Assembly (NCBI GenBank): GCA_017399035.1
Contig: JAFQEM010000019.1
Span: 1 to 45,843 of the forward strand
DNA length: 45,843 nucleotides
Source of the DNA: Clostridia bacterium
GTDB lineage: Bacteria; Bacillota; Clostridia; Christensenellales; Borkfalkiaceae
Direction: 5' to 3'
The translations under genes were made by a program, and so were the position numbers. Shown piece after piece: positions 16,567 through 39,026 of the stretch (position 1 is the stretch's first letter; every line of letters begins with the position of its first letter). A model generated the notes under the pieces. It was not told the origin of the DNA, did not search any database, and was given only the letters and a program-made list of their open reading frames with translations.

Positions 16567-16579
16567 ACGCTAAAAACAC

Positions 16580-16610
16580 AAAACGGTTCAGAAAATTCTG
16601 AACCGTTTTT
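16580..16610 (+). terminator. Terminator of the second LysR gene
   Basis: Stem AAAACGGTTCAGAA (16580-16593) / TTCTGAACCGTTTT (16596-16609), with a T-run. It starts 14 bases after the stop codon. Confidence 0.85.
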
Positions 16611-16614
16611 ATTA

Positions 16615-16653
16615 AAAATGAAAAACGGCGCGCTAAAATTTTAGCGCGCCGTT
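16615..16653 (-). terminator. Terminator of the 22-kb operon
   Basis: Perfect palindrome AACGGCGCGCTAAAA (16624-16638) / TTTTAGCGCGCCGTT (16639-16653). Read on the minus strand it is followed by TTTTTCATTTTTAAT. It lies 12 bases after the last gene of the operon. I saw no comparable hairpin at any internal gene junction. Confidence 0.88.
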
Positions 16654-16664
16654 ATAATTTATAA

Positions 16665-17231
16665 TTAAAATCTTTGTTTTATACTTTCAAAAATAGCGTT
16701 TAAGGGGTTAGAAACAAAAAGTTTATCTAACTTAAAGAAACTGCCTTGCATTGCTTGATAAACACTTCCGTTTATACCCGTTGTCCAAGCGAGAATTTGG
16801 AATACAGTTAAAAGTATAACCGCCACACAGAAGAAGGCAAGCGCAACGCCCAAAACCTTGTTGATAACTTTCATCACTGGATTGTTTGCGCTAAACGCTT
16901 TATCAATAAGTTTTACGGCTAGTTTTCTTAATAGTTGAACGGCAAAGAATAAAGCAACCGCAAACACAATTAGGTCAAGCCTTATTTTAATAAGTAAATC
17001 GCATATAAAATTTTCGCTTGATGCAAGTGATTGATTTAAGTTTGTCAACGCCTCTTTCACAAAAGGCCAGTCTAGCACTACGCCAAAAAGAAAGTAACAA
17101 ACGAATATTGAAATTATTTTACCAAAAATGCCTTTAGTGAAAAAATTAAGCACTTTTCCAAAACCGCCTAAAATTCCGCCCACTATACACAAAGCGCCCA
17201 CGACAAGCACTATAATATCTATCGTCAACAT
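16665..17231 (-). CDS. CvpA-like membrane protein (operon gene 11)
   Basis: 188 residues from ATG at 17229-17231, preceded by GGAG at 5 bases; a longer in-frame start would overlap the upstream gene. Starts MLTIDIIVLVVGALCIVGGI and has three to four membrane helices (about 4-22, 32-52, 83-103 and 125-150). The pattern of an initial ID-I-hydrophobic run followed by Gly-rich turns resembles the CvpA/colicin V production family. Last gene of the operon, 10 bases after the AAA ATPase gene. It could be the membrane anchor or target of the AAA protein (inference). Confidence 0.6.
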   Translation of the reverse strand: MLTIDIIVLVVGALCIVGGILGGFGKVLNFFTKGIFGKIISIFVCYFLFGVVLDWPFVKEALTNLNQSLASSENFICDLLIKIRLDLIVFAVALFFAVQLLRKLAVKLIDKAFSANNPVMKVINKVLGVALAFFCVAVILLTVFQILAWTTGINGSVYQAMQGSFFKLDKLFVSNPLNAIFESIKQRF

Positions 17232-17241
17232 AATTACTCCG

Positions 17242-18426
17242 TTAATCGTTAATTTTTTCTCTAAAACTGTTATAAGTTGCAAGAACTTCTGCGCTTATGC
17301 TTGGAGGATTTTTCTTAACTGCCTTTTCAAACATTGCTCTACCAACAGGGATAGGCGTGGTTGAGTTTGTTGCCATAAGTTGTTCAAGCGCAAGACGGCA
17401 CGCCTCTTCAATAATACCGCAAATATCTGCAGACGAATAAGAACCACCGCCTAATTCTTGACCGTTAAAAGAAACTTTGGGTGCGCACGCTTGAGTTGTC
17501 ATCAACATAATATCGTCGATTGAAACGTCGTCGGCAAGAGGTATACCTTTAAGTTTGCTTTCAATAATAGCACGCCTTGCCTCTGCGTCAGGCGGAGTTA
17601 TATGTACCATATGAGAAAAACGTTTATATCTCAAATACGCAGGGTCTATTTGGTCGGGGCGGTTAGTTGCGCCTATTAAAATACGTTTTGAACCGTCAAC
17701 ACCAAAACCGTTCATTCTTTGTAAAAGTTCGGTGGTTACCGCAGACTTATAATCTTTAGTATCTGAAGTACGTTTGCTGAATATTGATTCGCACTCGTCA
17801 ACGAAAAGTATTGCGCCTTCTTCACAAGCCTCAATATCTTGGAACAACTGCTTAACCGCTTGTTCTGATTCACCAACGTAAGACTTAAAAATATCTGCAG
17901 GCGTTACCACGAAAAGTGGTAGTTGCATTTTGTTTGCTATTGCCTCGGCAAACATAGTTTTACCCGTACCTGGCGCACCGTACATCAAAAGACCTAAACC
18001 ACCTTGAATTTTATAATACTTTAAAATATCAGGGTTATCTGCCATGAACGCAAAAGACGCGATAAGGTTTTTTACGTCTTGTTGCCCCTTTATGTCGTCA
18101 AGAGTAGTTTTTGGAACTTCCCTTTTCATAATTGCGCCGTATCCCTCGGCTTTATCAAGACATCTCTTATGCAAATCTTTAAACTTTTCTTCTAAAGTGT
18201 CGTCGTTTGCGGCGCGTTCATAAATTTTCTTTGCTATATTTGCAGCGCGCATATATTCAACACGAAGTTCGCGTTTTTCTTCTGCGCTCATTTGATTTTT
18301 ATCTTTACGCGTGCCTATTATTCCACGGATTTTCACCATTACGGCGTCAAAATCACCCTTGAGTTGGTCTATACTAACCTTTGCCTCTCCGTTATCTCCC
18401 TTTACGGGCTTACCTATTCCACTCAT
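17242..18426 (-). CDS. Vps4/katanin-like AAA ATPase with MIT-like N-terminus (operon gene 10)
   Basis: 394 residues from ATG at 18424-18426 (GGAG 6 bases before; the ATG four codons earlier has no site). Residues about 20-100 form a helical bundle ending KRCLDKAEGYGAIMKRE, like the end of an MIT domain (C-x-x-x-A-E). The AAA domain is of the meiotic/Vps4 clade: Walker A GAPGTGKT (150-157), pore loop KSYVGESE (181-188), Walker B ILFVDECE (206-213), sensor 1 GATN (252-255), arginine fingers near LRYKRF. Such ATPases thread or disassemble protein polymers. Preceded by a coiled-coil gene 22 bases away, a natural substrate candidate. Confidence 0.85.
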   Translation of the reverse strand: MSGIGKPVKGDNGEAKVSIDQLKGDFDAVMVKIRGIIGTRKDKNQMSAEEKRELRVEYMRAANIAKKIYERAANDDTLEEKFKDLHKRCLDKAEGYGAIMKREVPKTTLDDIKGQQDVKNLIASFAFMADNPDILKYYKIQGGLGLLMYGAPGTGKTMFAEAIANKMQLPLFVVTPADIFKSYVGESEQAVKQLFQDIEACEEGAILFVDECESIFSKRTSDTKDYKSAVTTELLQRMNGFGVDGSKRILIGATNRPDQIDPAYLRYKRFSHMVHITPPDAEARRAIIESKLKGIPLADDVSIDDIMLMTTQACAPKVSFNGQELGGGSYSSADICGIIEEACRLALEQLMATNSTTPIPVGRAMFEKAVKKNPPSISAEVLATYNSFREKIND

Positions 18427-18448
18427 ATCTTTCTCCATTTAATAATTA

Positions 18449-19171
18449 TTAAAGAATATCGTCGTAACTTCCACCGTCTGAAGTTGCTGCGGCATATGAT
18501 GCGCCAGAAGTTGCAGTACTTGGTGCAGACATACCCCTTTGAGCCCTTGCCTCGGCAAGTCTTCTTTGTGCCTCGCTAGGTTTAGAAGGTGCAACCGGTT
18601 GACCTTTTTTGTTGCCCTTTGCCCCAACTTTCTTAAACGCTTTGCCCATATCGTCAGCAAAACTTTCTAATGATTTAACCATATCGGTCATCATTCTATA
18701 TTTAAAAAGCATTCCGTCAACCATTGCTTTCATTCTGCCTATGTTGTTTTTACGCGCTTTGCGTTGCTCGCGTTTCATTTTCATACGCGCGAAGAAACTA
18801 TAAGACTGCGCAGAAACTTTTCTTGTGAGTTCACGGTCAAAGTTTACGCAAGAATCAAGGAAAGACATAGCCTCGGTTACGCATTCCATAGCCACGTTTA
18901 CCGCTTCCATAGACTTCATAACGTTTTCCATTTCAACGCTTGCTTCATAAAATTTAGTTAAAAGCACAACTAGATAATGTTCGTTACCATATTGTTCTTC
19001 CACTTCAAGAATTTGATTAAGAAGTTGTTCTTGCTTATTCTTAAAGTCAATTTTGCTTTGCGCTTTTGCCTTTTCTAGCCTTTGCTTTTCCATTCTAGAA
19101 TGCTCTTCTTTAATATCGTTTTGCAGAACGTTAAGGTCGTCCTGACGAAACCTTCTTTCATTTTCAGCCAT
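18449..19171 (-). CDS. Coiled-coil protein, possible AAA substrate (operon gene 9)
   Basis: 240 residues from ATG at 19169-19171, with GGAGG 8 bases upstream. Almost wholly helical: charged coiled coil (about 1-60), a Met/Glu-rich helix (80-115), a basic segment (125-145) and another helix up to about 185. Then a Pro/Ala/Ser linker carries SEAQRRLAEAR near residues 199-209, and the protein ends GGSYDDIL. Overall size and layout (basic helical core, flexible tail with a short helix) recall ESCRT-III or PspA-like proteins, and the tail helix loosely resembles an MIT-interacting motif. This is suggestive only; I cannot show homology. Confidence 0.6.
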   Translation of the reverse strand: MAENERRFRQDDLNVLQNDIKEEHSRMEKQRLEKAKAQSKIDFKNKQEQLLNQILEVEEQYGNEHYLVVLLTKFYEASVEMENVMKSMEAVNVAMECVTEAMSFLDSCVNFDRELTRKVSAQSYSFFARMKMKREQRKARKNNIGRMKAMVDGMLFKYRMMTDMVKSLESFADDMGKAFKKVGAKGNKKGQPVAPSKPSEAQRRLAEARAQRGMSAPSTATSGASYAAATSDGGSYDDIL

Positions 19172-19194
19172 TTTATTTTCCTCCAAAATAATGG

Positions 19195-22100
19195 TTATTT
19201 AACATATTTTTCTATCGCTTTTGCGATTAGTTTTCTTTCAGACGCATTGTTATCTACCCAGTCGTGTATATAAGTTCTTACGATATTCCAACCACGATTT
19301 CTCAAACTTTCAACGTATCTAACGTTGTAATCAATAAAATCCGTATTCCCTTCAACCGGTCTTTCGCACCACAATGCAAGTTGCGCTTGTTGCAAATCTT
19401 TTGACAATATTACTATAGGCAATTTTACCGAACCGATATTCATACCGCAATCAATAACAATTCGTTCTTTATCAATGCCCAAAGAAACAACGTAATCTGC
19501 CACTTGACGGATAAAACCTTTACTCTCTTCAAAAGACTTACCAACCCATTGCGCTTTTCCGCCCACGCTAAACCTTTCAACAGTTTTCAAATAGTCGCCT
19601 ATAAACTTAACGCTTTCCCCAGTTATTTCTTCACTGCGAACGGAATGCAAAACCGTTACCGACGACTTTGCACGAGTTACCGCAACGTTGAAAATGCACT
19701 GACCTAATTTATCTTCGTTAAATCCTCTGTTAAGTTCGCCAAAAGATTGAACTATGCTACCCGTTTTGCTTTTTCCGTAAGTAATTGACAAAATAAGATG
19801 TTCACACTCTTGCCCTTGAACGGTTTCAATGGTTTTGAAAAATACAAGTTTTTCAGGCACGTCGTTAAAATTTCTATACGCTTTTTCAATTTTTGCCGAC
19901 AACTCTTTATCTTTTGCGACCAAATTTTCAATAAGCGTTTTTTGTTCTTTACCGAAAGCAACGACACCGATTGACTGCGTCAACTCTTCTTTATTTACGT
20001 CGTAATAGCGCTCAAAAATTTCTTTAAATTCTTTTACGGCTTGCATTGCCTCTTGAACGTTAGCGCCACCGTCGCAACGCCCGTCAGCAATATAAACGTC
20101 TTTAAAGCCCAAACCATCTGCCTTTGGCAAGGTTGCAGGGAAAGTGCGCATATCGGGATAAAATCTCTCTTGTGAAAAAGATATAAGCGACTCAGTTTTA
20201 CTTCTATAATGGCAAACGAATTTTTCGGTTGGGAAAGCGCAATTTTCTAGCGCTAAACTCAACACCGAAGTATTTTGCCCCAAAATTTTATATTCGCCGT
20301 CTTCACTCAATATCGCCTTTTCTGAACGTGATGTAAAGTGCCTTATAGGTGGCATTTGCCACTCGTCGCCGACAAGCACCACTTGTTTGGACCTAAACAG
20401 TACGGGTAAAACGGCAGTGGGTTCAAGTTGGCTTGCCTCGTCTATTATTACTATGTCAAAATTTTCATATTCTTCTCTACCGAAAAATACGCTTGCCGTA
20501 GACGGTGAGAGAATAAAACATTTTTTAAGTTTAAGTATTGCTCGAGCGCGCTCTTTGAAAAATCTTCGCAAGGTTTCGCCTATTGAACGCTCTGCCTTAA
20601 GAAAAGCAAAATCTGCATCGTCAGGGTTTATTCTAGACATACATTGATTTTCTATAACGGTAAGCGTAGCCTTGTCTACTGCGCTTGTTCCCTCAACGTA
20701 TTCTTCATAACCACGGGTTGTTCTTTCGCCCCAACCGTTACGAGCCTCGCCCATAAGCGCTTGATAAAAACTAACCGCATAAAGATAAACCGAGCGTGTA
20801 AAAATTTGTTTAAATGAATTAACGCCCCTCTCTTTAACACCCAACTCAAACGGACGGAAAAATCTTTCAAGAGAATAGGTTTCACTTGAATTTAGAGTTA
20901 TATCTAAATATTCGTTTACTGCGTTAAAAATATTTCTATCAGTGCTTTCGGCAATAAAAATTTCTAAATCACATAAATTTAAATTGAGCGGGCTTTTAGT
21001 ATAGAAAGTGTGGAAATATTTACAGCCAAAACTTTCAAGTTTAACCTTGAGCGCGCTTATCTTTTCGGCAAGACCAAAGCCGTGCTTAAACGCCAAAGAA
21101 CAGCACTTTTCTATAAGATTAAAATCCCCACCAAACGCTTTGTTTTTTGCAAGAGAATAACTTCCAACTATATTTTTTGCAAAATTCAAAAGGTTATCTG
21201 CTATCCGTTGTTCGCCAGTAACAGCGCAAAAACGTTGAACGATAGCGTTTAACTTCTCTTTTGCCTTTGCAACTCTATAAGATTTAACTAAATCAGACAA
21301 GGTATAATCTTCTGCGCAACTAGCCTTTACAACTGCCTTAAACGTTAAATCTTTACTATTTTCAAAATTTTCAACGTACGTTTTAGCACTTATACCAGAA
21401 AGAGATATTTTGTTTGCAAACGCAAATAGCGTTGATAATTCTTCATCAGTAAGTTTAAGCCTAAATTGCGAACAAGTTTTAACCTTTGCCTCTTTAATTG
21501 AGTCTAAAAGTGATAAAATTTGATGATATAAATTTACGCCTTCAACCACTTGCGCAAAATCAAGTTCTTGACCATAACCTAAATTTTTAAGTTTTGAATA
21601 AAGTTTTTTCGCCTTAAAATCAAAAACTTTTGGCGCGGAAACGTTTGTGTCTACGTAAGATTTTAAACTTTCGTAACCATCTATAATAACCGATAAATCT
21701 TGCTCGGATATATCTGAACTAAATATAGAATAAAACGCGTCGTTAGTTTGGGTAAGTTTATCTTCTAACTCTTTTATACTTTGAATTATCTTTTTCAAAG
21801 TGTCAATTCTACCGCTCTCATTTAACAAGTTGAGAATAGAAAAATATTCGTTAAATTTTATAAACTCACTCTTTTTAAGCGATAAATCTAACTTGCTTGC
21901 AGTTAGCCCGTCTGTATATTCTTCAATCGCATCAAAATCTATTTCAATATCTTTAACAAGGGGTTTTTCTTCTTTTAAATAGCACTCGTAAGCAAGTTTA
22001 ACGCCGTCTATTATAGACGCGTTTTCTTGGTCAACAACCGCAGAGAGCAAATTTTCATCTATTTTATTTGACGAAATAAACTCTAAAACGTTTAACGGTA

Positions 22101-23760
22101 ACTGCTTATAACCCTCAAATTCATTTTCAAAAATGCCCTTAACTTGTTCACAAACGGCATAAGCGTCTTTAACCGTGTCAGAATTAAACTCTAACGCGCT
22201 TTCAATATCCGCGCCGTCAAAATCGCCCTCGATAGGATACCACGGGCTTTTTATAAATCCGTGGTCAGCGCTAACTCTATCAAACCATTTGCCAGCATCT
22301 TCAACTTGGTTAGACAAAACGTCAAACTCTTCTTTAGTTAAATTGTATAAATCTTTAGGATGAGCAAAAGGTACGGTTTCCGCCGTATTTTCACACAAAA
22401 CTTCTAAAGCGTCGTAATAACTACCTTGTAATATTTCTTTTTTACCATAAGTTACGTCTACGTAATTTTTTAGCGAACGAACGGCAGAATTTATTTGATT
22501 TAGCCCTACGTCTAACTCACCGTAAACCTTTGCAGAAGAAGAAAACTCTTTTCTTTCACGAAGTAGTTCGTTAAACTCTGCCCTTACGTCGTTCACGTTG
22601 AGTTTTGCGGCTTGAGTTTCCGTTTCACTATCTAGCAACATAACGAATTTGCGCAATTCTGGGGGTAATTTTGCAAACACTTCAAACATTGCCGCCGTTT
22701 TTTGTGATGACAACAATACCCGTTTATTTTGCGCCATAAGTGAAGATATAAGGTTAATAATGGTAAGCGTTTTGCCCGTTCCTGGTGGACCTTTTATAAT
22801 AAGTGATTGCCCTGACGCAACCTTATTTACAATACGCTCTTGAACGCTATCTCTAGGCATTATAAACTGTGCGTTTACCTGTGGGAAAGAATTTTCGTCA
22901 ATAGGCTCGCATTTAGAAAAAATTCTTTGCACTAGCGGATGCGAATAAATTTTTTCTTTATTCTTTTTTATATCGTAATACATGCACAGTTCGTCGTGAT
23001 TATATTGAGCAATAGCCACAACGTTCTTTTCAAATTCAAAGGTGGTTTCTGCGCTTATATCTTGTCTTTTTTGCGAACGGACGTATTCTAAAACTTTAGA
23101 AAAATAACCTTCGCCATTGCCTAGTTTATCTAATTCAACGGGGCTGTCAATATCTATATTAAATCCGTTTGGATGAGGAAATTCTTCAACTATCTTTTCG
23201 CCCATATCTAAACGCAACTTTGCAAAAAAACAAGGGTTAAGATATATTTCGTCGCCTACGAATTCAACGTAAACTGGTGAAGTTTTTCCACCCGAGCGAA
23301 CGAGTTTAATAGGGAACAAAATGAGCGGAGAACTAACTTCTTTTAAAGAAGAATCTTTGCAAACGGTTTTCCAACGAATTGCGCCCACGCTTAAAAATAA
23401 AGGATTGTTGCCCTTTAACGCCAACTCTTTATATACGTTTTCTATGTATTTACGCAAAGCGGTTGAATCTTTATCGCCATAACCGTCTTGCCAGTCAAAG
23501 TCATTTAAATCTTTGCCTAAAATTTGCTCTGAACCACAAACTTCGCTACTTCCACGCAAAACCGTGTTGCCAGTTTTGCCATAGCGAGAACAAATCACTT
23601 CAAGAGCGTATTTTGAAAGGTTTTCCGTTTGGTTTCGGCTTAAAAAATACGTTTTTGAAATATCCCCTGCTTTTAGGTCTATAAGTTTATTTTTGTCAAC
23701 GTCGTTTACGTGCAGAAGGTCTACGGTAAACGCCTCAATATTATCGCTGATTTTACTCAT
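19195..23760 (-). CDS. Very large SF1 (Upf1/Dna2-like) helicase with nuclease-like tail (operon gene 8)
   Basis: 1521 residues. N-terminal 1-250 resembles the DUF4011 region that precedes such helicases (PLFLSVGAIRWK, PLILFPIKLVR). Walker A GPPGTGKT is at 324-331. About 770 residues of helical insertion follow before Walker B IIDEAS (near 1103). Then GDEWQMPP (motif III), CHYRSKTESL (IV), TVQGQECEHL (V) and NVAVTRAKS (VI, near 1362). The last 90 residues (LALWCERP, then LRNRGWNIVRTYIHDW) match the layout of the Vsr/MTES_1575-type endonuclease that ends DUF4011 helicases, but the expected upstream Asp is not evident. Starts 3 bases after the zincin gene, whose stop overlaps its ribosome site. 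Confidence 0.85.
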   Translation of the reverse strand: MSKISDNIEAFTVDLLHVNDVDKNKLIDLKAGDISKTYFLSRNQTENLSKYALEVICSRYGKTGNTVLRGSSEVCGSEQILGKDLNDFDWQDGYGDKDSTALRKYIENVYKELALKGNNPLFLSVGAIRWKTVCKDSSLKEVSSPLILFPIKLVRSGGKTSPVYVEFVGDEIYLNPCFFAKLRLDMGEKIVEEFPHPNGFNIDIDSPVELDKLGNGEGYFSKVLEYVRSQKRQDISAETTFEFEKNVVAIAQYNHDELCMYYDIKKNKEKIYSHPLVQRIFSKCEPIDENSFPQVNAQFIMPRDSVQERIVNKVASGQSLIIKGPPGTGKTLTIINLISSLMAQNKRVLLSSQKTAAMFEVFAKLPPELRKFVMLLDSETETQAAKLNVNDVRAEFNELLRERKEFSSSAKVYGELDVGLNQINSAVRSLKNYVDVTYGKKEILQGSYYDALEVLCENTAETVPFAHPKDLYNLTKEEFDVLSNQVEDAGKWFDRVSADHGFIKSPWYPIEGDFDGADIESALEFNSDTVKDAYAVCEQVKGIFENEFEGYKQLPLNVLEFISSNKIDENLLSAVVDQENASIIDGVKLAYECYLKEEKPLVKDIEIDFDAIEEYTDGLTASKLDLSLKKSEFIKFNEYFSILNLLNESGRIDTLKKIIQSIKELEDKLTQTNDAFYSIFSSDISEQDLSVIIDGYESLKSYVDTNVSAPKVFDFKAKKLYSKLKNLGYGQELDFAQVVEGVNLYHQILSLLDSIKEAKVKTCSQFRLKLTDEELSTLFAFANKISLSGISAKTYVENFENSKDLTFKAVVKASCAEDYTLSDLVKSYRVAKAKEKLNAIVQRFCAVTGEQRIADNLLNFAKNIVGSYSLAKNKAFGGDFNLIEKCCSLAFKHGFGLAEKISALKVKLESFGCKYFHTFYTKSPLNLNLCDLEIFIAESTDRNIFNAVNEYLDITLNSSETYSLERFFRPFELGVKERGVNSFKQIFTRSVYLYAVSFYQALMGEARNGWGERTTRGYEEYVEGTSAVDKATLTVIENQCMSRINPDDADFAFLKAERSIGETLRRFFKERARAILKLKKCFILSPSTASVFFGREEYENFDIVIIDEASQLEPTAVLPVLFRSKQVVLVGDEWQMPPIRHFTSRSEKAILSEDGEYKILGQNTSVLSLALENCAFPTEKFVCHYRSKTESLISFSQERFYPDMRTFPATLPKADGLGFKDVYIADGRCDGGANVQEAMQAVKEFKEIFERYYDVNKEELTQSIGVVAFGKEQKTLIENLVAKDKELSAKIEKAYRNFNDVPEKLVFFKTIETVQGQECEHLILSITYGKSKTGSIVQSFGELNRGFNEDKLGQCIFNVAVTRAKSSVTVLHSVRSEEITGESVKFIGDYLKTVERFSVGGKAQWVGKSFEESKGFIRQVADYVVSLGIDKERIVIDCGMNIGSVKLPIVILSKDLQQAQLALWCERPVEGNTDFIDYNVRYVESLRNRGWNIVRTYIHDWVDNNASERKLIAKAIEKYVK

Positions 23761-23763
23761 AAT

Positions 23764-25728: not shown

Positions 25729-25768
25729 AAGGCGCACCTCCTTTAATTTATTTAAGTAGTTTTAACTT

Positions 25769-28431: not shown

Positions 28432-28461
28432 AATTAACTCCTTGTGTGAGTAAACAACTGA

Positions 28462-31400: not shown

Positions 31401-32241
31401 GGCTCATATAGTTGTCTTTATAATCGTTTTTAATCTCTTTTGCAAAACCTATAACGCGCTCTTTAACCGCATCAATTTCACTTTTATCAACAAAAACTTT
31501 CAAGTTGTCGTTTATGTTATTTAGGTAAGTGCTGTTCAAAATTTTGAATTGCGTTCCACAATCAAGATAAATTTCTTTAATTGATTTATCTTCAAAGAAA
31601 TCGCCGTAAACACCAGTAACCTTTTGACCGTTAAATTCTTTAGCAATAGTTACTTTATCACCCTTTGCCTCGGCAATAGGTTGCGCAACGTAACCTTTAT
31701 CAAGTTCGCTATAAACGTATCTAACCGTTCTAAACCCAACTTCGCCTTGACCAAACACACCGTTCTTTATTGCGTAACCAAAATAAAAACAAGAGATAAA
31801 AACCAACAACGCAGTAAATAGAAAAGCGGTTATTTTAAGCGTGCCACCTTTCTTTGCGCCGTTGCTTACGCTAACTAAAAGCGATATGCCCGACACAATG
31901 CGGAAAACGGCAAAAATTATCATTGCCAAAAGATAAAAAAGTTCAAGGTTAAGAACTAAAGTTAAAACACCACAAACCAACACGGATACGCCAACGTATA
32001 CGAGCGGTAAAATTCTGCTATACTTAAACCTAAAGTTAGACGCTATTACGCCGACAAACAAACCAAGGTCGAACACGGTTATTAAAAACACCGCAAGCCC
32101 TGCCGTAAACGCAAGCCCGCCCGCCATAAGCAATGCAGTTAAAACTACGTCAACAGCCAAAATGGCTATTACCGTTGCATATATAAAAAATTTGTTACTT
32201 TTAAGCCTTTCTTTCAAGACTGAATTATTAACGTTTGCCAT
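28462..32241 (-). CDS. Giant membrane-anchored MBG/Ig-repeat protein (operon gene 4)
   Basis: 1259 residues. The first ~160 hold five to six hydrophobic helices. Next comes a segment with a BspA-like Leu-rich signature (FEDKSIKEIYLDCGTQFK) and a Listeria-Bacteroides type repeat (FTLDGWEYKTTGTEK, ending VSPVWK near 475). An Ig-like domain follows (near 480-580), then at least six MBG-type beta repeats recognisable by Y-N/D-G-x-x-Q/E-x-x-x and GxY. The repeats probably face outward. GGAGGG precedes the ATG. Its position inside a helicase/AAA/protease operon is unexpected; it may be the surface sensor or adhesive part (inference). Confidence 0.75.
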   Translation of the reverse strand: MANVNNSVLKERLKSNKFFIYATVIAILAVDVVLTALLMAGGLAFTAGLAVFLITVFDLGLFVGVIASNFRFKYSRILPLVYVGVSVLVCGVLTLVLNLELFYLLAMIIFAVFRIVSGISLLVSVSNGAKKGGTLKITAFLFTALLVFISCFYFGYAIKNGVFGQGEVGFRTVRYVYSELDKGYVAQPIAEAKGDKVTIAKEFNGQKVTGVYGDFFEDKSIKEIYLDCGTQFKILNSTYLNNINDNLKVFVDKSEIDAVKERVIGFAKEIKNDYKDNYMSLYNMIVPDGLADNEVYITFDYTYQDIEYSNFEPIKTWIGKKGDTFNLTQHASGVSYVEGFNDSDAQAYEDFLINNLSRGKVLCPLKDGEESILGQSVNGNLSNVNVHFETIYKVTIDSVCNDTLYNIATADAEFFKIDGVRYVVGSDPFDLLSEVTLRDGFTLDGWEYKTTGTEKTEFTKLTNILNQDVTVSPVWKLNAPVITDLRLDKNSYIYGDTAKFTVDATAPTQGIELSYVWKHFGNAVADQPNSNEYTKTNISPALENGDAGNYEIRVTASSSTLTSLTSESYKDITLNIGKKPLNFNEWILPGEVYGNGKEKNFVYNGEEQTVKASYVESDVINNDNITVEMQMNDGQKVASFERTIKNAGNYKFRLELTGLCSELYEIASNQTASVNIAKKVIQLEWSGYENLVYDGTEKNVTATPTGVVGGDYFELTITGGNGKDATEKNNGTAYQATATIDPEQWLLPSMNYALENPTCSYTISQREITVEWYDETEFTYNGQLQGPQVERVYGKVDTDGSIIQQGVGWEINANNAGNPTHTATAVIKDKNYKFADGAETTRPFVIKPKLVDIVWSNTEFTYNGSERLPTARIADGGLVGTDRCSIYVYGKQTDAGTYTATTQSPGEGLPSGLSNGNYEISGVYSTCEFTINKKSITPAITNNNLTYNGLTQDIAVKLNDVISGDDCSPILSISQVCEAGNYEVIVTSIYGLKANNYQLPENYKMQFTVKKAPLTLYAQDKTITYGDQVPELTIEYVGFVQAEDESLFGTKPTLICNYIQGGNVGKYDIVFTQQGSYTLANYEIQTIKGTLTVEKRNITVTVDNLSSVYGEEEKPATAQVTSGSLFEDDMPYVLKHFVTETSSVGTYNITCTSINSNYNITSINGTYTIEQRVVTLDWGTKTTFTKEEFKSYSLPEIVSGTVNGDDVRINRQFSKDVNSLPAGEHIVTITAILSNGNYKADVETFQVTIIVPQVPEVIE

Positions 32242-32253
32242 AACACCCTCCGC

Positions 32254-33900
32254 CTATCTCGTCAATTTGCGTGGCTTATCTATATAACCTTTTTCACGCA
32301 CGGCGAGTTTATTGAATACGTATTTGTTTTGACCGACGTTGAAAAGCACAAGTTCGTCGTCTTCAACACCGTATTTTTTCTTAAATAACCCAAACAGCCT
32401 TACTGCAAGTGGTAAAACGCCTTTGTATGCTCGATAAACCGCTTTTGCCTCGGGGGAATCCTCAGAATTTTTCAAACTCATACAAAGTGGGCAATGCTTG
32501 CCGTTTTTCATAACTGAAGTTGAAAAATATCTTCCGCAAGTTTTACACTTAACAACACCGCCTATAAGTTCGTCTTTGGGGTCAACCAAATCCATAACGT
32601 CTTTAGCAAAGAACATATCGGGTGTGTATCTCTTTTCCCCAGAAAGTGAAGTGTAAACAACTTCGGGATAAGGACAATCGCTACATTTGAACGATTTTAC
32701 ACCGTCTGACGTAACTTCAAACACTTGCGAACGGCATTTTAAGGTTTCACAACCAGTTCCACGCGCAGTTTTTGGGCAAACGACATTAAAGAAGTGATTT
32801 GCTAGGTCGCTATAAGTGATAATTTCTTCTTTTTCTTCTTGAGTTAAACCTAAATTGCCCGATAACGGATTTAACGTAACCGTTTTTTCAACACCGTCAA
32901 CAAAATAAGTTATTTGGTTTCTATCAACCAACTTTTCACCCTGATTACAGTTAAGGCAATCTATGGTTAAGTTGTTATTTATACCCATAACAATTTTGAG
33001 CATAGGCGAACCTGCCAAATGCGCCTCGTAAACGAACGCGCTTGCTTTTATGTGGGTTATATAAAGCAAGTCTACTCTGGGGCATTCAAGTTCAATCGCC
33101 TCGTGTGAAAGTTGAGCAAGCATATTGTTTACGGCAACTTTATCCGACTTGTCGCTAAAACATAAATAATCTGCAAAATTGCGCTTTTCGTCGTTAATAA
33201 GACCGTCTATTGCATTGAGCGTTACGTCAATTACACCGTCCCCACTCAAAATTCCGTTCTCTTTAACGTCTTCGGGTATAATTTCGTTTAAGTTGCTGTC
33301 AATATCTTCCGCCGCCACACCTTTAATAGGCGTCATAACTCTGCCCGACTTATTAAAATAAACTTTACCAAGTATAGGTAACGACGCACCAGTTCCGCCA
33401 GAGAGTTCTATTCTCATTGCAACGCCGTAAATATCTTCTATCACTTCTTCGTCTGCCACCTCAACTAAATTTAATTTCTTGTTAAGGGTGGGATAAAAGT
33501 TTTGTGTTAAATTATCTATAATTTCTTTTGCGGTTTGAAAGGCGTTTTCTTTTTCGGCTTTAGTTCTTGCCTGTTGCTGATATTCAACAACCGAATAACG
33601 CTTATGATATTCAATACCAACCGTTTCAATAAACGAAGTCCATATAGCGTTGTCGTTTTCTACGTGTTCACCACGCAAAGCCTTAAACCACGTTGCGCCG
33701 TCTTTAGTGAACGCGTGCTTTACAGCCTCGCTCACCTTTGATGCAGACGTAGAAAGTTCATATTCGTAAACGCCGTCGTTAATAACGTTATTTTGAATAT
33801 ACCAACCCAAACCGTCAAAGCAACCACCGCGGATAAGTTCGCAGATGCTTTCAAACGCTTTGGCGTATTCATTACCTACGTAAATGTGTTTCTTTGCCAT
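32254..33900 (-). CDS. Multi-zinc-ribbon protein of unknown family (operon gene 3)
   Basis: 548 residues, no membrane segment. Cys pairs occur late in the chain: CLNC (near 317), CPKTARGTGCETLKC and CSDC (near 375-405), CKTC (near 455) and CPLC (near 471), enough for two or three zinc sites. The N-terminal 300 residues are mixed alpha/beta with no motif I know. Ends in a basic tail. AAAGG lies before the ATG. It follows the SNF2 gene by 17 bases; a stable complex with that Cys-rich helicase is plausible. It does not look like DISARM DrmB. Confidence 0.6.
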   Translation of the reverse strand: MAKKHIYVGNEYAKAFESICELIRGGCFDGLGWYIQNNVINDGVYEYELSTSASKVSEAVKHAFTKDGATWFKALRGEHVENDNAIWTSFIETVGIEYHKRYSVVEYQQQARTKAEKENAFQTAKEIIDNLTQNFYPTLNKKLNLVEVADEEVIEDIYGVAMRIELSGGTGASLPILGKVYFNKSGRVMTPIKGVAAEDIDSNLNEIIPEDVKENGILSGDGVIDVTLNAIDGLINDEKRNFADYLCFSDKSDKVAVNNMLAQLSHEAIELECPRVDLLYITHIKASAFVYEAHLAGSPMLKIVMGINNNLTIDCLNCNQGEKLVDRNQITYFVDGVEKTVTLNPLSGNLGLTQEEKEEIITYSDLANHFFNVVCPKTARGTGCETLKCRSQVFEVTSDGVKSFKCSDCPYPEVVYTSLSGEKRYTPDMFFAKDVMDLVDPKDELIGGVVKCKTCGRYFSTSVMKNGKHCPLCMSLKNSEDSPEAKAVYRAYKGVLPLAVRLFGLFKKKYGVEDDELVLFNVGQNKYVFNKLAVREKGYIDKPRKLTR

Positions 33901-33917
33901 TTTAACCTTTAACCTCT

Positions 33918-36761
33918 TTAATCCTTATCCTTGTCGTTTGCTAATATAGCCTGTATCTGAGCAACCTTGTTAGTTTCATTTATTAGGTTGGTACAGAAAG
34001 ATTTTCCGCCGTCTTGCTGATAATCGTAAGCCGAACGGATATAAGTTTCAAACGTTCTTGCCACAACGGGTTTTAATATTCCCTTTGCGCCGTTGCTTGC
34101 GCACACGGGGCAGTTTGCTTCCCACTTTTCATTGAACTCAACTACGTGCGGTTTGGGGAAACAAGTTGCTTCCGAACAGGTCATACAACCTTTAATACCT
34201 TCCGCCCCACTACGAACACGGCACTTTTGATGACATACGCCCGAATAAGAACAGTTATCACACAATTCTTCTAAATCTGCGTCGGTTGCCGACGGATTTT
34301 CTTTATAGTAGTTAAGCGCCTCACACTTGCCTTTAAGCGGTCCGCTAATAAACCTTTCACAATGCGATATTGCGCATATCTTTCTACAATAAAGTTGCCT
34401 ATCGCCCTTGACGCCTGCGTTACACATAACACCGCTACCAGTGCTGTTTACTGCAAGACAGTAATATTGACCGCCGTCGTCGGAATTTTGTCTTTTAATA
34501 ACGCTACCGCAGTTATCACACTTAACTTCGTTGCCGTTGATTTCAACCATCAACATACCGCGTTGGTTCTCTAGACGACATTTTTCGTTATCGCTACAAT
34601 AAATTTCGTCAAGGTCGTTTTTCTTAAACGCCTCGTAATCTTCTTTAGACATAAGTTTAACGTTTCCACAAGCGGGGCAACGTATGGTAACCATATTGTC
34701 GTTGTTACTGCCCGCAATAATAGCAGCATCACCGCTGTTACTAGTCATCAAACCTATTCTTGTAAAATACATCAACACGTAACCTTCTAGTTTACACATA
34801 TCTGCAAACGAATAAATGACTACGTCGTTTTCTTGACCCAAACGGAAAATACGACCTATGCTCTGTTCCATACCCAAGGGGTTAGGCGTAACTTGGAAGT
34901 TGACTATAACGTTACTCTTTTGTAAGTTTGCGCCTTCAGTAAATGCGTTTGTAGTAACCACCAAAATAGCGTCGTCCGTTTGATTAAACTTCATTTCTAT
35001 CTTCGCTTTATCCGAATTGTCGCCAACTATAATTCTATTTTTATATTTAGCGTCAGCGCGCAATTCTTCAAGCACTTGTTCGTAACACCTTTCACTCTTT
35101 TTAACGTCGTAATCAAAGAATACTATAACTCTGTCTTTTTTATATTTATCAAGAATTTTCTTTAATTCCGCCATCTTTTTATCAAACACGTTTTGACCGT
35201 CAAATACGGGGCGGAAAGATAAGCCAACGTCGTTTGAACTTGAACCGATTGCGGTATTTTGCATACCACGCATCTCTTGCCAGTAGAAAGTCATTGAATT
35301 TTTCTTTAAGAAACTTTCGTCTTCTAACCCGAAAGAGTGAAGTATTCCGTTTCCACCAAAGAATAAATCTGCATACGCAAGATTATACGACATATTGCCC
35401 TTATGCTCTTGAACGTATTCTGAAATTGAATATTGAGAATCTTCGGTTTTAATTGCGCCGTCGCCGTCCATATCGTCTACGACAAGCGTAACCGTTTTAT
35501 TTGCCATACCCGTAATTTCAATTTGCTTTTGAGTGTTTTTTGCAGGGAAGAAGAAAACGTTTTCTATATGCTTACCCTTTTTGATTCTGTCGTTAGGTTG
35601 ACGAATCATTATTGAACGCAAAACACCGTTGTGGTATGCGTTTGCAATATTGAGCATTATTTTGTTTTTAACCTGCTCGTTTTCTTCAAGGAATTGGTCT
35701 ATAATATTTTTCTTTTCACCGTCAAGCAATTCGTTGAACTCTTCAATTTCAGGCTTACCATTAAGCCTTGCCCACGTTTCGTATTCGTCGGCAAAATTCT
35801 CTTGTATTTCTAAAATCTTTACCTTGTTGATAAAGTCCATAACCGTATCTGCGCCACGGCAAATATGTTCTTTATAATACTTCTTTTCTTTTCTATATTC
35901 TTCAGTTCTAGCAACGTCTTCTTTTTCATCAAAATCAGAGGGCAAACCGCCTTTGCAACGTATAAAATACCAAAGTCTAAACATATTTTCTAAATTGCCA
36001 GAGTGAGGGGTTGCAGATAACAGCACGCAATAGGTCTTTTTTGCCTTCTTTTTGGTTTCCATCATAATAGACAAAAGTTTCATTGCCCTTGCTGAAGAAC
36101 CTTCTTCACCGCAAAGGTTATGAGCCTCGTCAACCACCACAACGTCAAACAAAACGTTTGAAACGTCGTGCTCTTTCCAACATACGAAGTCCTCGGTTTT
36201 TACTATTATAGGTGCGGTGGGGCGCATCATAGAATCTTCGCCAACTGCAAAATTTTCATCAGAAAATTCTTTGCCCAAGGTTTTCAAAACGCCTTTACCT
36301 AAACCAAAACCGTTTTCTAAAACTTCTATCCAAGTGTTATAAACTTGAGAAGGCACTATAATGAGTGCGGTTGCAATTTTGCCTTTTGCTGCAAGTTCGC
36401 TTAAAACTGCGCCCGCCTCGTAAGTTTTACCACTACCAACAACGTCTGCAAGCAACCCAAAGCCACGCAATTCTTTCAAAAACGCTTGCGTTGCCTTAAC
36501 TTGGTGCGGTAACAAACGCTCGTCGCCCATATGGAATTTGTTTTTCTTTATACCGTAGTCAGTGCCTTTATTAGCATAATCAGACGGCGACAACGTGAGC
36601 GAAGAAAATTCGTCGTATCTATCTAAAACTTCTGCGGCTTTATTCATTTGAGCAACGTGTTTAGTATATTTTTTACAATCGTGCAGTCCTGCCCTTTCCA
36701 TATCTTTATCGAAAGCGCCGGCTGAAAACTTTATTTTGAATTGTACGTTCTGTTCTTTCAT
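33918..36761 (-). CDS. SNF2-like SF2 helicase with long Cys-rich tail (operon gene 2)
   Basis: 947 residues. Helicase motifs: LLPHQ (Q-motif-like, 83), Walker A DVVGSGKT (106-113), DEAH (211-214), SATPHSGN (249-256), TTNAFTEGANLQ (603-614) and GRIFRLGQ (636-643). This is the SNF2/RapA order, so the protein likely translocates on duplex DNA or remodels a nucleoprotein. Residues 695-923 contain 22 Cys, many as CxxC, suggesting several zinc ribbons. The first lobe has a long charged insertion. GGGAG precedes the ATG. It follows the Hsp70-like gene by 13 bases. Confidence 0.88.
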   Translation of the reverse strand: MKEQNVQFKIKFSAGAFDKDMERAGLHDCKKYTKHVAQMNKAAEVLDRYDEFSSLTLSPSDYANKGTDYGIKKNKFHMGDERLLPHQVKATQAFLKELRGFGLLADVVGSGKTYEAGAVLSELAAKGKIATALIIVPSQVYNTWIEVLENGFGLGKGVLKTLGKEFSDENFAVGEDSMMRPTAPIIVKTEDFVCWKEHDVSNVLFDVVVVDEAHNLCGEEGSSARAMKLLSIMMETKKKAKKTYCVLLSATPHSGNLENMFRLWYFIRCKGGLPSDFDEKEDVARTEEYRKEKKYYKEHICRGADTVMDFINKVKILEIQENFADEYETWARLNGKPEIEEFNELLDGEKKNIIDQFLEENEQVKNKIMLNIANAYHNGVLRSIMIRQPNDRIKKGKHIENVFFFPAKNTQKQIEITGMANKTVTLVVDDMDGDGAIKTEDSQYSISEYVQEHKGNMSYNLAYADLFFGGNGILHSFGLEDESFLKKNSMTFYWQEMRGMQNTAIGSSSNDVGLSFRPVFDGQNVFDKKMAELKKILDKYKKDRVIVFFDYDVKKSERCYEQVLEELRADAKYKNRIIVGDNSDKAKIEMKFNQTDDAILVVTTNAFTEGANLQKSNVIVNFQVTPNPLGMEQSIGRIFRLGQENDVVIYSFADMCKLEGYVLMYFTRIGLMTSNSGDAAIIAGSNNDNMVTIRCPACGNVKLMSKEDYEAFKKNDLDEIYCSDNEKCRLENQRGMLMVEINGNEVKCDNCGSVIKRQNSDDGGQYYCLAVNSTGSGVMCNAGVKGDRQLYCRKICAISHCERFISGPLKGKCEALNYYKENPSATDADLEELCDNCSYSGVCHQKCRVRSGAEGIKGCMTCSEATCFPKPHVVEFNEKWEANCPVCASNGAKGILKPVVARTFETYIRSAYDYQQDGGKSFCTNLINETNKVAQIQAILANDKDKD

Positions 36762-36774
36762 AAACCTAACTCCC

Positions 36775-38712
36775 TTAATTATCTCCTACCGTAACGAATC
36801 CGGCAAGCCCTTTGGTAACTATTTCAATCTTTCTTGCATAAACTTTAATTGCTCTGTCTGGGTCTGACTTATACGCAATAGAAACTCTTTTGCTCTCTGC
36901 CGAAACGTTTCTTATAATCGGGGTTGCGTTACCGTGAGAATCAACCCTTATGCCTTGGTCAAAATCGACTTCCCCACCTTGCAAAATCTTGCAATCTCTA
37001 CCGTTATATCTAAAATAAATTCTTCCGTAATTACCACCAGAAACCGTTTTAAGCGCAAAATCTTTCATTGCCTTTTTTCTTCTTGCAGTTCCCTCTTCGT
37101 CAACGATTAAGCCCTGATTTTTAGGTGTGTAACTCCACAATCCTCTATTTTTATTTCTCTCTATGTCCGACCTTGTTATGTGTGTAGAGAACAACTCTTC
37201 TTTAGTAGTTCCCTCACCACTTACGTTATAGGTGTTTACGAACTCTCTACCGCCGTCTATAACTTCACCACGTTCAGCGAATATTGATAAACATTTTACG
37301 CCGTCTATATACGCCCAAGTTGCATAAGAGAGTGAAAGTATTGTTCTTATATTTATATTTTTCAGCGACACTATCGCCCCGCCAACGGCTGGCGCAAACA
37401 CCGAATCTTCATAACTCTTTATACTAAATTCGTCTTGTTTAGAACAGTCGTTGTCAAACGTTAAAACTTGCACGTTAGGAACTTCCATCGCCAAAACTTG
37501 CTTAATATAGTTTAGCAACGAAAAGGTTTCTACAAGTCCGCCAGACACGAAAATTTTTTTAACGTTTTCGTTTATAGGTTTTTGAACTTCTTCTAAAACG
37601 TAGTCAACTATATCTCTAGCAACACCCTCGCCCGATTCAATGCCTATACTCTTTCTAAACTCTTCTCTGGTAAGTCTACGCTGAATACATAAATCCCAAC
37701 TTAAGGTTATAGGCACGCCACTTTGAAAAACGCTGTCTTCTTTTAATTCTTTGCTCAAAATAACTTTTGCTTTTTTGATATCTTTCATCAAAAGATATTG
37801 CTTACTATAAACGCCACTTTCCGATATATGACCGTCTTGCCCCGACGACGGAGAACCTATAGTTTCTCTATCCGCAATAGCCTCGTAAACGCTGTTCACT
37901 ATTGCTTGGTCTATATCTATACCACCTATTGACAGAGGTTCGTTATGCCCCTCGTTTCCGTCAACGATAATTTGATTTCTAAAAATGCTTGCTCTAGCAA
38001 CCGAAATATCTTCTTCGCCCATATCGAAAACCAAAAAGTCGTCGCCGTTAGAAATTGCGCCACGTTGCACGGCGTAAGAAGTTAGCGCCTTGGTAGAAGA
38101 AAGCACTTTAAAAGGCTTATAGCCGAACGTGAGAAAAATCACTTCGGCTAATTCTTTAACGTATTCTTCGCCTACGCTAGACGGATGCACCAGCGCAATT
38201 TTATAATCGTCAAACTGTTCTTTTAATAAAAAGTTAAGTTCGTTTCTTCTTTGGTCAACCAAATTTTTTAAGTATCTAAAAAAGTCTACGCAAATTTGGT
38301 GCGGTGTTTTATCTGCACAACAAAAGGTTCTGCCCTCTTTTACCATAAGGTCAAAGTTATCGAGCATCTTTCTTCTTACGGGAAAATAGAATTTAGGAAA
38401 TTCGTGTCCGTAATAGTAATAATTTTTATTTTCTTCCCAAACGTATTCGTCTTCTTTTGACGCAATTAAGGACATCAAACTTTTAATTTTGACAACCGTT
38501 ACAAAAGATTCGCTCTGTTTAGAAATATTGTCGCCAAAAACCCACTCGTTAGTTCCCACACGATAATATGCAACTGCAGGTATAGCAACTTGCGTAAGTT
38601 TACTTTTCCCCGCAAACTTGCCGTATATAATACCCGAATCGCTATCTATCGCAAATGCGACTTTTACGGTATCACTGCCAAGGTCTATACCGATATTCAA
38701 AACTTTTCCCAT
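36775..38712 (-). CDS. Hsp70/actin-fold ATPase (operon gene 1)
   Basis: 645 residues. Actin-fold motifs: phosphate-1 GIDLGSDTVK (8-17), phosphate-2 LVFDMGEED (227-235), adenosine motif KKIFVSGGLVETFSLL (385-400). The phosphate-2 loop replaces the Hsp70 DLGGGT by DMGEED. The last 230 residues do not show the normal DnaK substrate-binding domain and lid, and no EEVD/GGxx tail is present, so it is a divergent family member and not DnaK. First gene after the operon promoter. It probably acts as an ATP-driven switch or remodeller for the operon's other products (inference). Confidence 0.8.
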   Translation of the reverse strand: MGKVLNIGIDLGSDTVKVAFAIDSDSGIIYGKFAGKSKLTQVAIPAVAYYRVGTNEWVFGDNISKQSESFVTVVKIKSLMSLIASKEDEYVWEENKNYYYYGHEFPKFYFPVRRKMLDNFDLMVKEGRTFCCADKTPHQICVDFFRYLKNLVDQRRNELNFLLKEQFDDYKIALVHPSSVGEEYVKELAEVIFLTFGYKPFKVLSSTKALTSYAVQRGAISNGDDFLVFDMGEEDISVARASIFRNQIIVDGNEGHNEPLSIGGIDIDQAIVNSVYEAIADRETIGSPSSGQDGHISESGVYSKQYLLMKDIKKAKVILSKELKEDSVFQSGVPITLSWDLCIQRRLTREEFRKSIGIESGEGVARDIVDYVLEEVQKPINENVKKIFVSGGLVETFSLLNYIKQVLAMEVPNVQVLTFDNDCSKQDEFSIKSYEDSVFAPAVGGAIVSLKNINIRTILSLSYATWAYIDGVKCLSIFAERGEVIDGGREFVNTYNVSGEGTTKEELFSTHITRSDIERNKNRGLWSYTPKNQGLIVDEEGTARRKKAMKDFALKTVSGGNYGRIYFRYNGRDCKILQGGEVDFDQGIRVDSHGNATPIIRNVSAESKRVSIAYKSDPDRAIKVYARKIEIVTKGLAGFVTVGDN

Positions 38713-38811
38713 AAACTACCCTAGTCCAACTTATTAGATATTCCAGTTTTTTCATAAACTTTTAAAGTGATTAAAAAAGCGTTTTTTGACTGAAATATAA
38801 TTATGATAATA

Positions 38812-38840
38812 ATTATATCACAAACGCTCATAATATGCAA
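38812..38840 (-). promoter_or_regulatory. Promoter of the 22-kb operon
   Basis: Minus strand: -35 TTGCAT (38835-38840), 17-nt spacer, extended -10 TGATATAAT (TATAAT at 38812-38817). The leader is about 93 bases. No operator-like palindrome is obvious, apart from a short AAAAAACGCTTTTTT in the leader. The rest of 38841-38929 has no gene that I can support. Confidence 0.75.
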
Positions 38841-38929: not shown

Positions 38930-38970
38930 CGAAAAAAATAAAAAACACCGTGGCAAAACTTTTGCCACGG
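38930..38970 (-). terminator. Terminator of the DJ-1/HAD unit
   Basis: Stem CCGTGGCAAAA (38948-38958) / TTTTGCCACGG (38960-38970), followed on the minus strand by TGTTTTTTATTTTTTT. It separates the DJ-1 unit from the 22-kb operon. Confidence 0.85.
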
Positions 38971-39026
38971 CATTATTGTATTCGAGTTTTGAACTCACTA
39001 AAACACTATATTTATACGTTGCTAAA

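Follow-up and report, generated by a model that had tools for sequence, protein, structure and literature searches.

Conflict systems of the CoCoNuT type possess Hsp70-like domains, coiled coils and zinc ribbons, and SNF2 ATPases are among the domains of their neighbourhoods, according to part of the published account (PMC11090510). Zorya couples a membrane sensor to the cytoplasmic helicase ZorD (PMC11890865, in part), Hsp70 or AAA chaperones occur within the large operons of the GTPase-tubulin-HSP70 and MoxR-vWA conflict systems (PMC7159879, in part), and bacterial Vps4-like AAA proteins are encoded beside a TPR/6TM partner, with PspA or Snf7 accompanying other AAA proteins (PMC11237479, in part). 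Here we describe an operon from a Clostridia bacterium of the Christensenellales that recalls several of these systems. It lies in a stretch of 45,843 nucleotides, hereafter the window (contig JAFQEM010000019.1, contig 15 in a 1.53-Mb draft genome, 69% complete). Of the eleven genes of the operon, ten belong to a conserved unit that encodes members of four families of ATP-driven motors or chaperones, namely an Hsp70-like ATPase, a SNF2 translocase, an optional SF1 helicase and a classical AAA ATPase, and among its other products a presumed surface protein.

A conserved unit of ten genes

Gene maps of homologous loci confirm that the operon is real and that ten of its genes, numbered 1 to 10 and encoding P0001 to P0010, constitute a conserved unit. 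In all 26 complete loci, defined as those with both unit ends on one contig, the genes lie on a single strand in the order 1-2-3-4-5-6-(7-8)-9-10. Twelve of these loci are long (genes 1-10), 13 are short (without genes 7 and 8) and one, in genome G887, is short with a DUF4011 helicase upstream that scores as a distant P0008; this helicase aside, genes 7 and 8 are jointly present or jointly absent in 26/26. The short form comprises eight genes in about 14 kb. Adjacent member genes are separated by 60 bases or fewer in 199 of 204 pairs, and the conservation of order goes far beyond chance. Since the order has been kept while mean protein identity has dropped to 22-60%, the parts probably belong to one assembly. 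An initial annotation of this DNA had proposed an undescribed operon of co-travelling families whose homologues should neighbour one another in other genomes, and this is borne out: every complete locus carries eight or ten of the families in one order, P0010 is detected (E <1e-60) in 20 of the 21 genomes chosen for P0001, and nothing matching the unit as a named system was found in PADLOC, NCBIfam or Pfam. The same annotation counted eleven genes. The run itself stands, but a unit of eleven does not: P0011 has no homologue beside other unit loci and was rejected as an eleventh member, so the unit is counted as ten genes.

The features of the window, with protein lengths in amino acids (aa), are as follows.

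36775..38712, minus strand: P0001, gene 1, Hsp70-like ATPase of 645 aa (profile comparison)
33918..36761, minus strand: P0002, gene 2, SNF2 translocase of 947 aa with Cys-rich C-terminal zinc sites (Pfam)
32254..33900, minus strand: P0003, gene 3, zinc-binding protein of no known family, 548 aa (invariant Cys)
28462..32241, minus strand: P0004, gene 4, presumed membrane-anchored surface protein of 1259 aa with an N-terminal hydrophobic bundle and MBG repeats (Pfam and hydropathy)
27271..28431, minus strand: P0005, gene 5, with a zinc ribbon at the N-terminus, repeats of the Sel1 kind and an invariant DD in the C-terminal region (alignment and profile)
25769..27271, minus strand: P0006, gene 6, coiled-coil-like, 500 aa, fast evolving (conserved position)
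23764..25737, minus strand: P0007, gene 7, optional, zincin in which ExDA lies downstream of HExxH (alignment)
19195..23760, minus strand: P0008, gene 8, optional, DUF4011 superfamily 1 (SF1) helicase with a Vsr/MTES_1575-like C-terminal domain lacking catalytic residues (PADLOC, NCBIfam and alignment)
18449..19186, minus strand: P0009, gene 9, helical adaptor of 245 aa, its low-complexity tail with a DDI-type end (alignment)
17242..18438, minus strand: P0010, gene 10, classical AAA ATPase of 398 aa with a helical N-terminal region (Pfam)
16665..17231, minus strand: P0011, accessory, small membrane protein with about four hydrophobic segments, presumed to share the transcript
16624..16653, minus strand: intrinsic terminator, a 13-pair stem (8 pairs G-C) followed by TTTCATTTTT, closing the gene run
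38812..38840, minus strand: candidate promoter, TTGCAT, 17 bases, TATAAT, with TG before the -10 element (seen in the sequence)
38944..38974, minus strand: terminator-like site between the DJ-1 gene and gene 1 (terminator scan)

By the map of open reading frames (ORFs) and their translations, the eleven minus-strand ORFs run end to end from 38712 to 16665, with gaps of 3-31 bases and a 1-base overlap at 27271; P0011, from the ATG at 17231, starts 10 bases past P0010. The terminator that had been read at the end of the run was found as described, and terminator-like sites within 16400-19300 number 15 against 2.7 expected. A second 13-pair inverted repeat (16580-16609) lies immediately downstream of it. 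The promoter claimed for the operon is present in the sequence, but the consensus scan did not list it (38840-38812) and its -35 element matches at 3/6 positions; other candidates were listed, the best on the minus strand being 38880-38852. The terminator-like site at 38974-38944 sets the operon apart from the upstream genes, annotated as rpsB, tsf and the genes for a HAD hydrolase and a DJ-1 protein. A search with Rfam at gathering scores returned no non-coding RNA between 14000 and 43700.

Individual loci vary around this layout. G002 has genes 1-5 only, with more than 15 kb of contig mapped past gene 5; by eye, a tRNA-Thr (L016:8122-8197) lies about 700 bases before its gene 1, the nearest noticed among the tRNAs found in 6 of 37 scanned stretches; integration at tRNA genes was considered on these data and rejected. 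Gene 7 is tandemly duplicated in G005 (L013:2429-6256), with HExxH and the downstream glutamate in both copies, and gene 9 is doubled at locus L036 (L084:6308-7698), where the second copy is shorter and has no DDI tail. At locus L046 (L093, G541), otherwise a complete long form, gene 8 is read as two overlapping ORFs, through a frame change or an assembly error. In G887 (L142:15998-19800) the DUF4011-type helicase is followed by a CvpA-family membrane protein (Colicin_V, 1.1e-11), whose gene ends 6 bases before gene 1 of the short form. It is possible that these two genes are counterparts of window genes 8 and 11, and G887, which lacks the 7-8 pair and has a helicase upstream, looks as if the helicase were replaceable; the similarity of P0011 to the CvpA-family protein is non-significant (E 0.32). 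In the metagenome-assembled genome (MAG) G543, from Bacilli, tandem Sel1-repeat proteins directly follow gene 10 (L095:1231-2598, L075:548-1489); P0005 has Sel1-like repeats too.

Protein families of the unit

Profile comparison by hhalign of P0001 (21 orthologues) with two Hsp70-like proteins gave a probability of 85 and E 5.9e-6 over 237 columns, a test that is not independent because both targets arose as weak matches of the P0001 family and were read as Hsp70-like by eye. PF00012 matches 5 of the 21 members, with E values from 0.0014 to at most 0.05, and the match to DnaK in a profile search of the PDB is weak (0.33). P0001 is accordingly predicted to have the Hsp70 nucleotide-binding fold. 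The phosphate-2 motif, DLGGGT in ordinary Hsp70, is divergent in P0001 (DMGEED, with G232 and E233 invariant in all 21), and with the motif so altered ATP hydrolysis by P0001 may be altered as well. P0002 scores above the cut-offs of both SNF2_N (PF00176, 5.1e-11; 42.7 bits, cut-off 24.9) and Helicase_C (PF00271, 1.5e-12; 48.2 bits, cut-off 23.5), and is on this ground a SNF2 protein. GSGKT, DEAH and many C-terminal Cys are invariant in 8/8 aligned copies; it is DrmD/BrxH/RapA-like, with NCBIfam scores far under the cut-offs (RapA 2.1e-23).

Two zinc-rich proteins had been noted; there are three, since P0005 adds a zinc ribbon. Its Cys3, 8, 25 and 28 are invariant in 17/17 copies, as is D359-D360, and its profile matches Sel1 structures (best 2.3e-5). 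In P0003, C315, C318, C384, C389, C406, C409, C452, C455, C470 and C473 are invariant in 20/20; the window copy matches no Pfam family above cut-off and gives only weak zinc-finger matches. P0004 matches PF18676 (2.1e-17) and varies from 763 to 1748 aa over 25 rows, the shortest being cut by the end of its stretch. Hydropathy places 4-7 partly overlapping segments in 24 of 27 rows, nearly all within the first 170 aa, with three in the window copy and none in two copies cut short.

P0006 has a mean identity of 22% (22 rows), and its pairwise distances correlate with those of P0009 at r 0.95. The C-terminus of P0006 resembles that of P0009 in G098, G115, L036 and L039; homology of the two proteins was rejected, as their profiles do not match (probability 0.1). 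The last residues of P0009 are DDI or DDV in 20 of 25 rows and a variant of this motif in four, while one row has nothing similar. Its one PADLOC match is weak (REase_I, 0.0012), and with no match for six further proteins, an informative PADLOC match is absent for 7 of the 10.

The optional genes 7 and 8 encode the sole predicted protease of the unit and a second helicase. H578, E579, H582, E633 and D635 of P0007 are invariant in 12/12, and 3 of the 12 members give a SprT-like match (best 0.0029). The middle part of P0007 was considered as a dead AAA domain and this was dropped (probability 0.6 and E 0.1 against the P0010 profile). P0008 matches PDC-S37 in PADLOC (2.6e-108) and ProA (4.1e-106) and Hhe (3.1e-77) in NCBIfam, with its Walker A and DEAS motifs invariant in 10/10. 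At the positions of its Vsr-like domain that we take to be catalytic, Asp is replaced by Pro and Glu by Trp, Met or Tyr in all 10 aligned copies (10 of 19 rows, copies under 1300 aa and those fetched later being omitted), and both acids are kept in 4/4 plasmid homologues. With these acids lost, the unit appears to have no recognisable nuclease, and the short form no recognisable protease either.

P0010 matches PF00004 (1.6e-33), with Walker A, Walker B and the arginines conserved, and is 57-82% identical to 16 of 17 aligned orthologues and 50% identical to the remaining one. The initial annotation had called it Vps4-type, a reading on which the scores are not decisive: it stands about equally near CDC48 (150 bits, the top NCBIfam match), PAN (132) and CdvC (131, cut-off 650), all under cut-off, as is Vps4_C (17.3 bits, cut-off 21.3), and there is no match to MIT.

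Distribution, exchange and proposed function

By our count 39 genomes carry the unit, the window's own included, found by searches with P0001 and, for ten more, through P0010. The 28 P0001 loci in named genomes come from MAGs of gut-type Clostridia or Firmicutes, including Borkfalkia (which the NCBI taxonomy places in Christensenellales), plus one titled Bacilli; seven of them are contigs of G002, G005, G098, G115, G127, G128 and G146 and were counted once, and the duplicate records G637 and G656 were excluded. P0001 occurs in 8 of 151 genomes of the order, own included, and gives 2 strong matches among 391 genomes of the class sample, where three weak matches (E 4e-4 to 5e-4) were excluded, two being ordinary Hsp70 homologues by eye and the third L054. 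P0010 is found at E <1e-90 in 19 of 297 genomes of the order, and in 16 of the 18 other than the window's own it lies beside other members (by maps or matching coordinates); in G629 and G146 the contig ends no more than about 350 bases away from it, and genes 1-3 of G146 sit on another contig. At E <1e-80 it is present in 3 of 296 genomes of the class of the Bacilli MAG, in a single genome, that of the window, among the 398 of the phylum sample and in 13 of 17 genomes of genus g73. The unit is rare and patchy overall, and near-core in one genus.

The unit has moved between lineages, a claim that rests chiefly on G005. A tree of P0001, P0002 and P0003 from 25 genomes groups G005 with G525 and G526, and a tree of the markers RpsB and Tsf from 29 genomes groups it with the genus that has the short form. 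In approximately unbiased (AU) tests, for groups that were chosen after the trees had been seen, the markers reject G005+G525+G526 (p 0.0006) and G534+G665 (p 0.006), and the unit rejects both a grouping of G005 with the genus that has the short form (p 0.002) and the pair G127+G665 (p 9e-5). Both trees carry long-branch warnings, for G127 and G665 among others in the marker tree and for G146 and G887 in both, and the unit tree carries warnings of odd composition, G127 and G526 among them. Pairwise distances among the ten families correlate at r 0.64-0.95 and with those of RpsB or Tsf at r 0.47-0.81; these ranges overlap, P0006 fitting Tsf (r 0.76) better than P0010 (r 0.64), and on the whole the correlations fit transfer as a block. 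Members of the unit evolve fast: genes 1-9 have mean identities of 0.22-0.46 and gene 10 one of 0.60, compared with 0.57 for Tsf and 0.66 for RpsB. A clean empty site was sought in the same-genus genomes G042 and G680; similarity stops right after tsf in both, so that the boundary of insertion is unreadable there. EF-Ts is of two lengths in the relatives, 219-257 aa in seven genomes (L162-L165, L167-L169) and 281-311 aa in most others, and the short type matches without roughly residues 91-167 of the window's protein.

The initial annotation had offered a conflict system or a large machine as the inferred function. We tentatively favour a model, while holding it somewhat less than an even prospect, in which the unit would be a machine anchored in the envelope and driven by ATP that disassembles nucleoprotein; its target would most likely be the invading DNA of phages or plasmids. 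According to this model the ten genes would be one functional unit that has travelled whole from lineage to lineage and was in places retained afterwards. P0004 would sit in the membrane and sense the outside or the wall, and Hsp70-like P0001, its ATP site altered, would serve as an adaptor or switch. Held in place by two zinc proteins, P0003 and P0005, the SNF2 translocase P0002 would travel on double-stranded DNA at the membrane, with the co-evolving helical proteins P0006 and P0009 as a scaffold, and P0010 would grip P0009 via its conserved tail and recycle or unfold the complex. The optional 7-8 cassette would contribute a protease and a second helicase to a core that works without it. Because no nuclease is recognisable, incoming DNA would be stalled by displacing or unfolding the proteins bound to it rather than by cutting. 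A conflict role is favoured by the anti-phage relatives of three of the parts (Hhe/ProA/PDC-S37, DrmD/BrxH and IetA) together with the patchy spread and the transfers.

Several observations weigh against a typical conflict role. No effector, such as a nuclease or toxin, is recognisable in the unit, the flank ORFs scanned include no obvious defence neighbours and the unit is near-core in g73 (13/17). In the short-form genus it lies mostly in one chromosomal region, with local variation: glutamyl-tRNA synthetase is upstream in at least six tracts, and a major facilitator superfamily transporter is downstream in at least ten, one of them (G005) outside this genus, although L031 has different upstream genes and several short-form tracts are too short for the region to be judged. 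The flanks were scanned with PADLOC and Pfam for 107 of 260 flank ORFs (on each side the two closest that reach 180 aa, within the length limit, P0011 included; the flank analysis omitted ORFs under 100 aa and overlapping ORFs). Flanking genes are mostly housekeeping in the first 25 of 86 Pfam families, and the flanks appear unlike defence islands, PADLOC matches at 1e-10 being few (13 families with one or two members, mostly of generic name, as raw counts without a background rate). The one clear PADLOC match was taken as the G887 helicase, and PDC-S01 and mad3 have one member each. Carriage by phage was likewise considered and found no support: the unit was not found in viral contigs with three family queries, a pattern-limited search, nor P0001 in phage records.

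Some of these observations suit the strongest rival, a physiological, non-immune envelope machine concerned with the assembly, display or turnover of P0004 or with remodelling of the envelope. The Hsp70-like protein, the AAA ATPase and the coiled coils would be its assembly factors, and the SNF2 protein would regulate transcription or nucleoid attachment in the manner of RapA. The near-core state, largely in one chromosomal region, the housekeeping flanks and the want of a recognisable nuclease all fit, as do the size of P0004, the largest short-form protein in most loci, and the likeness of P0002 to RapA (2.1e-23). Against it stand the rarity of the unit in the order (19 of 297 genomes) and its exchange between lineages, and a double-stranded DNA motor and a DUF4011 helicase are odd partners for envelope assembly; we consider it somewhat unlikely. 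Both DNA motors would find a place in an analogue of the pathway of Spartan/Wss1 with p97, in which SNF2 and SF1 motors, a CDC48-like AAA protein and the zincin would clear proteins stuck on DNA, and CDC48 is the top NCBIfam match of P0010 and the zincin P0007 has weak SprT-like matches in 3/12. Yet none of the 14 complete short-form loci, G887 among them, has the protease, the one SprT-like score noticed is 17.2 against a cut-off of 25.6, the invariant downstream glutamate of P0007 suits a gluzincin, and the membrane protein is left unexplained; we regard this analogue as improbable.

It is formally conceivable that P0009, perhaps with P0006, forms polymers that P0010 disassembles, its N-terminal region reading the tail motif of P0009, as in membrane remodelling of the ESCRT kind. 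The helical protein and the AAA protein are adjacent in 26/26 complete loci, the CdvC model spans residues 82-396 of P0010, the tail of P0009 is conserved and the distances of P0006 and P0009 correlate (r 0.95). Against this, neither Snf7 nor PspA is among the matches listed for P0009, P0010 has no MIT match and the profiles of P0006 and P0009 do not match, and we regard the idea as more improbable still. Descent as a distant offshoot of type IV restriction systems, those of CoCoNuT/McrBC, could explain the Hsp70-like protein, coiled coils and zinc ribbons, and even the SNF2 ATPase; but the ten proteins have no McrB, McrC, HEPN or other nuclease among the matches listed, and such an origin is exceedingly improbable.

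The natural short form is of a size that permits direct cloning and testing. If the unit is protective, it would represent a form of immunity that needs no nuclease and is linked to the envelope; otherwise it would be a bacterial machine of a new kind that ties a double-stranded DNA motor to the cell surface.

Comparison with named systems

One of the closest single-protein likenesses is to Hhe, ProA and PDC-S37, with which P0008 shares DUF4011, the SF1 helicase core and the Vsr/MTES_1575-like C-terminal domain. A Vsr-like nuclease with its catalytic acids, as in the four plasmid DUF4011 homologues, would be expected of these systems, whereas P0008 lacks Asp and Glu in 10/10 copies, lies inside a ten-gene operon and can be dropped from it; its full-length scores fall far short for Hhe (260 against a cut-off of 2000 bits) and ProA (356 against 1500), PADLOC giving no cut-off for PDC-S37. 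It was on these two grounds, score and missing acids, that membership was rejected.

The absence of DISARM, BREX and Zorya, noted when the operon was first read, holds up. The SNF2 ATPase P0002 falls into one broad group with those of DISARM and BREX (best PADLOC match DrmD, 1.3e-32), but DISARM needs the Drm core genes and a DNA methyltransferase, and the ten proteins match no methyltransferase and no Drm or Brx component beyond the SNF2 type, at least among the matches listed; the SNF2-type matches of P0002 are partial (112.5 bits, cut-off 950). BREX needs PglZ, BrxC and PglX, and only BrxHI/BrxHII-type SNF2 matches on P0002 were found among the best 25 of 44 PADLOC families, with none in Pfam or NCBIfam. 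Zorya is alike in working principle only: ZorD is named SWI2/SNF2 in PADLOC, and the matches listed for the unit include weak ZorD-type SNF2 matches, neither ZorA nor ZorB, and no nuclease effector.

The unit shares an Hsp70-like protein, coiled coils and zinc ribbons with CoCoNuT, but the McrB GTPase with its NxD motif and McrC, by which CoCoNuT/McrBC membership was judged, are not among the Pfam or PADLOC matches listed, nor is HEPN. It differs from the GTPase-tubulin-HSP70 and MoxR-vWA systems in that Pfam matches no TRAFAC GTPase, tubulin or vWA domain. P0010 resembles IetA, the AAA protein of IetAS (1.3e-31, PADLOC); the partner of IetA is the IetS-type serine peptidase, to which no protein of the unit has a match in Pfam or PADLOC. 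As in ESCRT-III/Vps4 and PspA neighbourhoods, a helical protein adjoins a classical AAA protein. An ESCRT-III identity of P0009 is without sequence support, Snf7, PspA and ESCRT-III being absent from the best 25 of 43 Pfam families (19 members) and from a profile search of the PDB, and the gene sets of those neighbourhoods, in the part of the account cited, differ from the unit (PMC11237479).

Our literature search, with most subscription journals and bioRxiv outside its reach and an earlier description therefore possible, found no description of the combination of genes, a large, rigidly ordered operon that joins Hsp70, SNF2, classical AAA, zinc proteins and a surface protein. The unit might even found a new class, in which a membrane-anchored surface protein acts together with an Hsp70 whose ATP site is rebuilt, a SNF2 motor and a classical AAA protein as one nuclease-free machine that uses ATP to strip and unfold incoming nucleoprotein, with an optional protease-helicase cassette, a proposal we would call unlikely as it stands. 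Its gene set sets the unit apart from every named system compared here.

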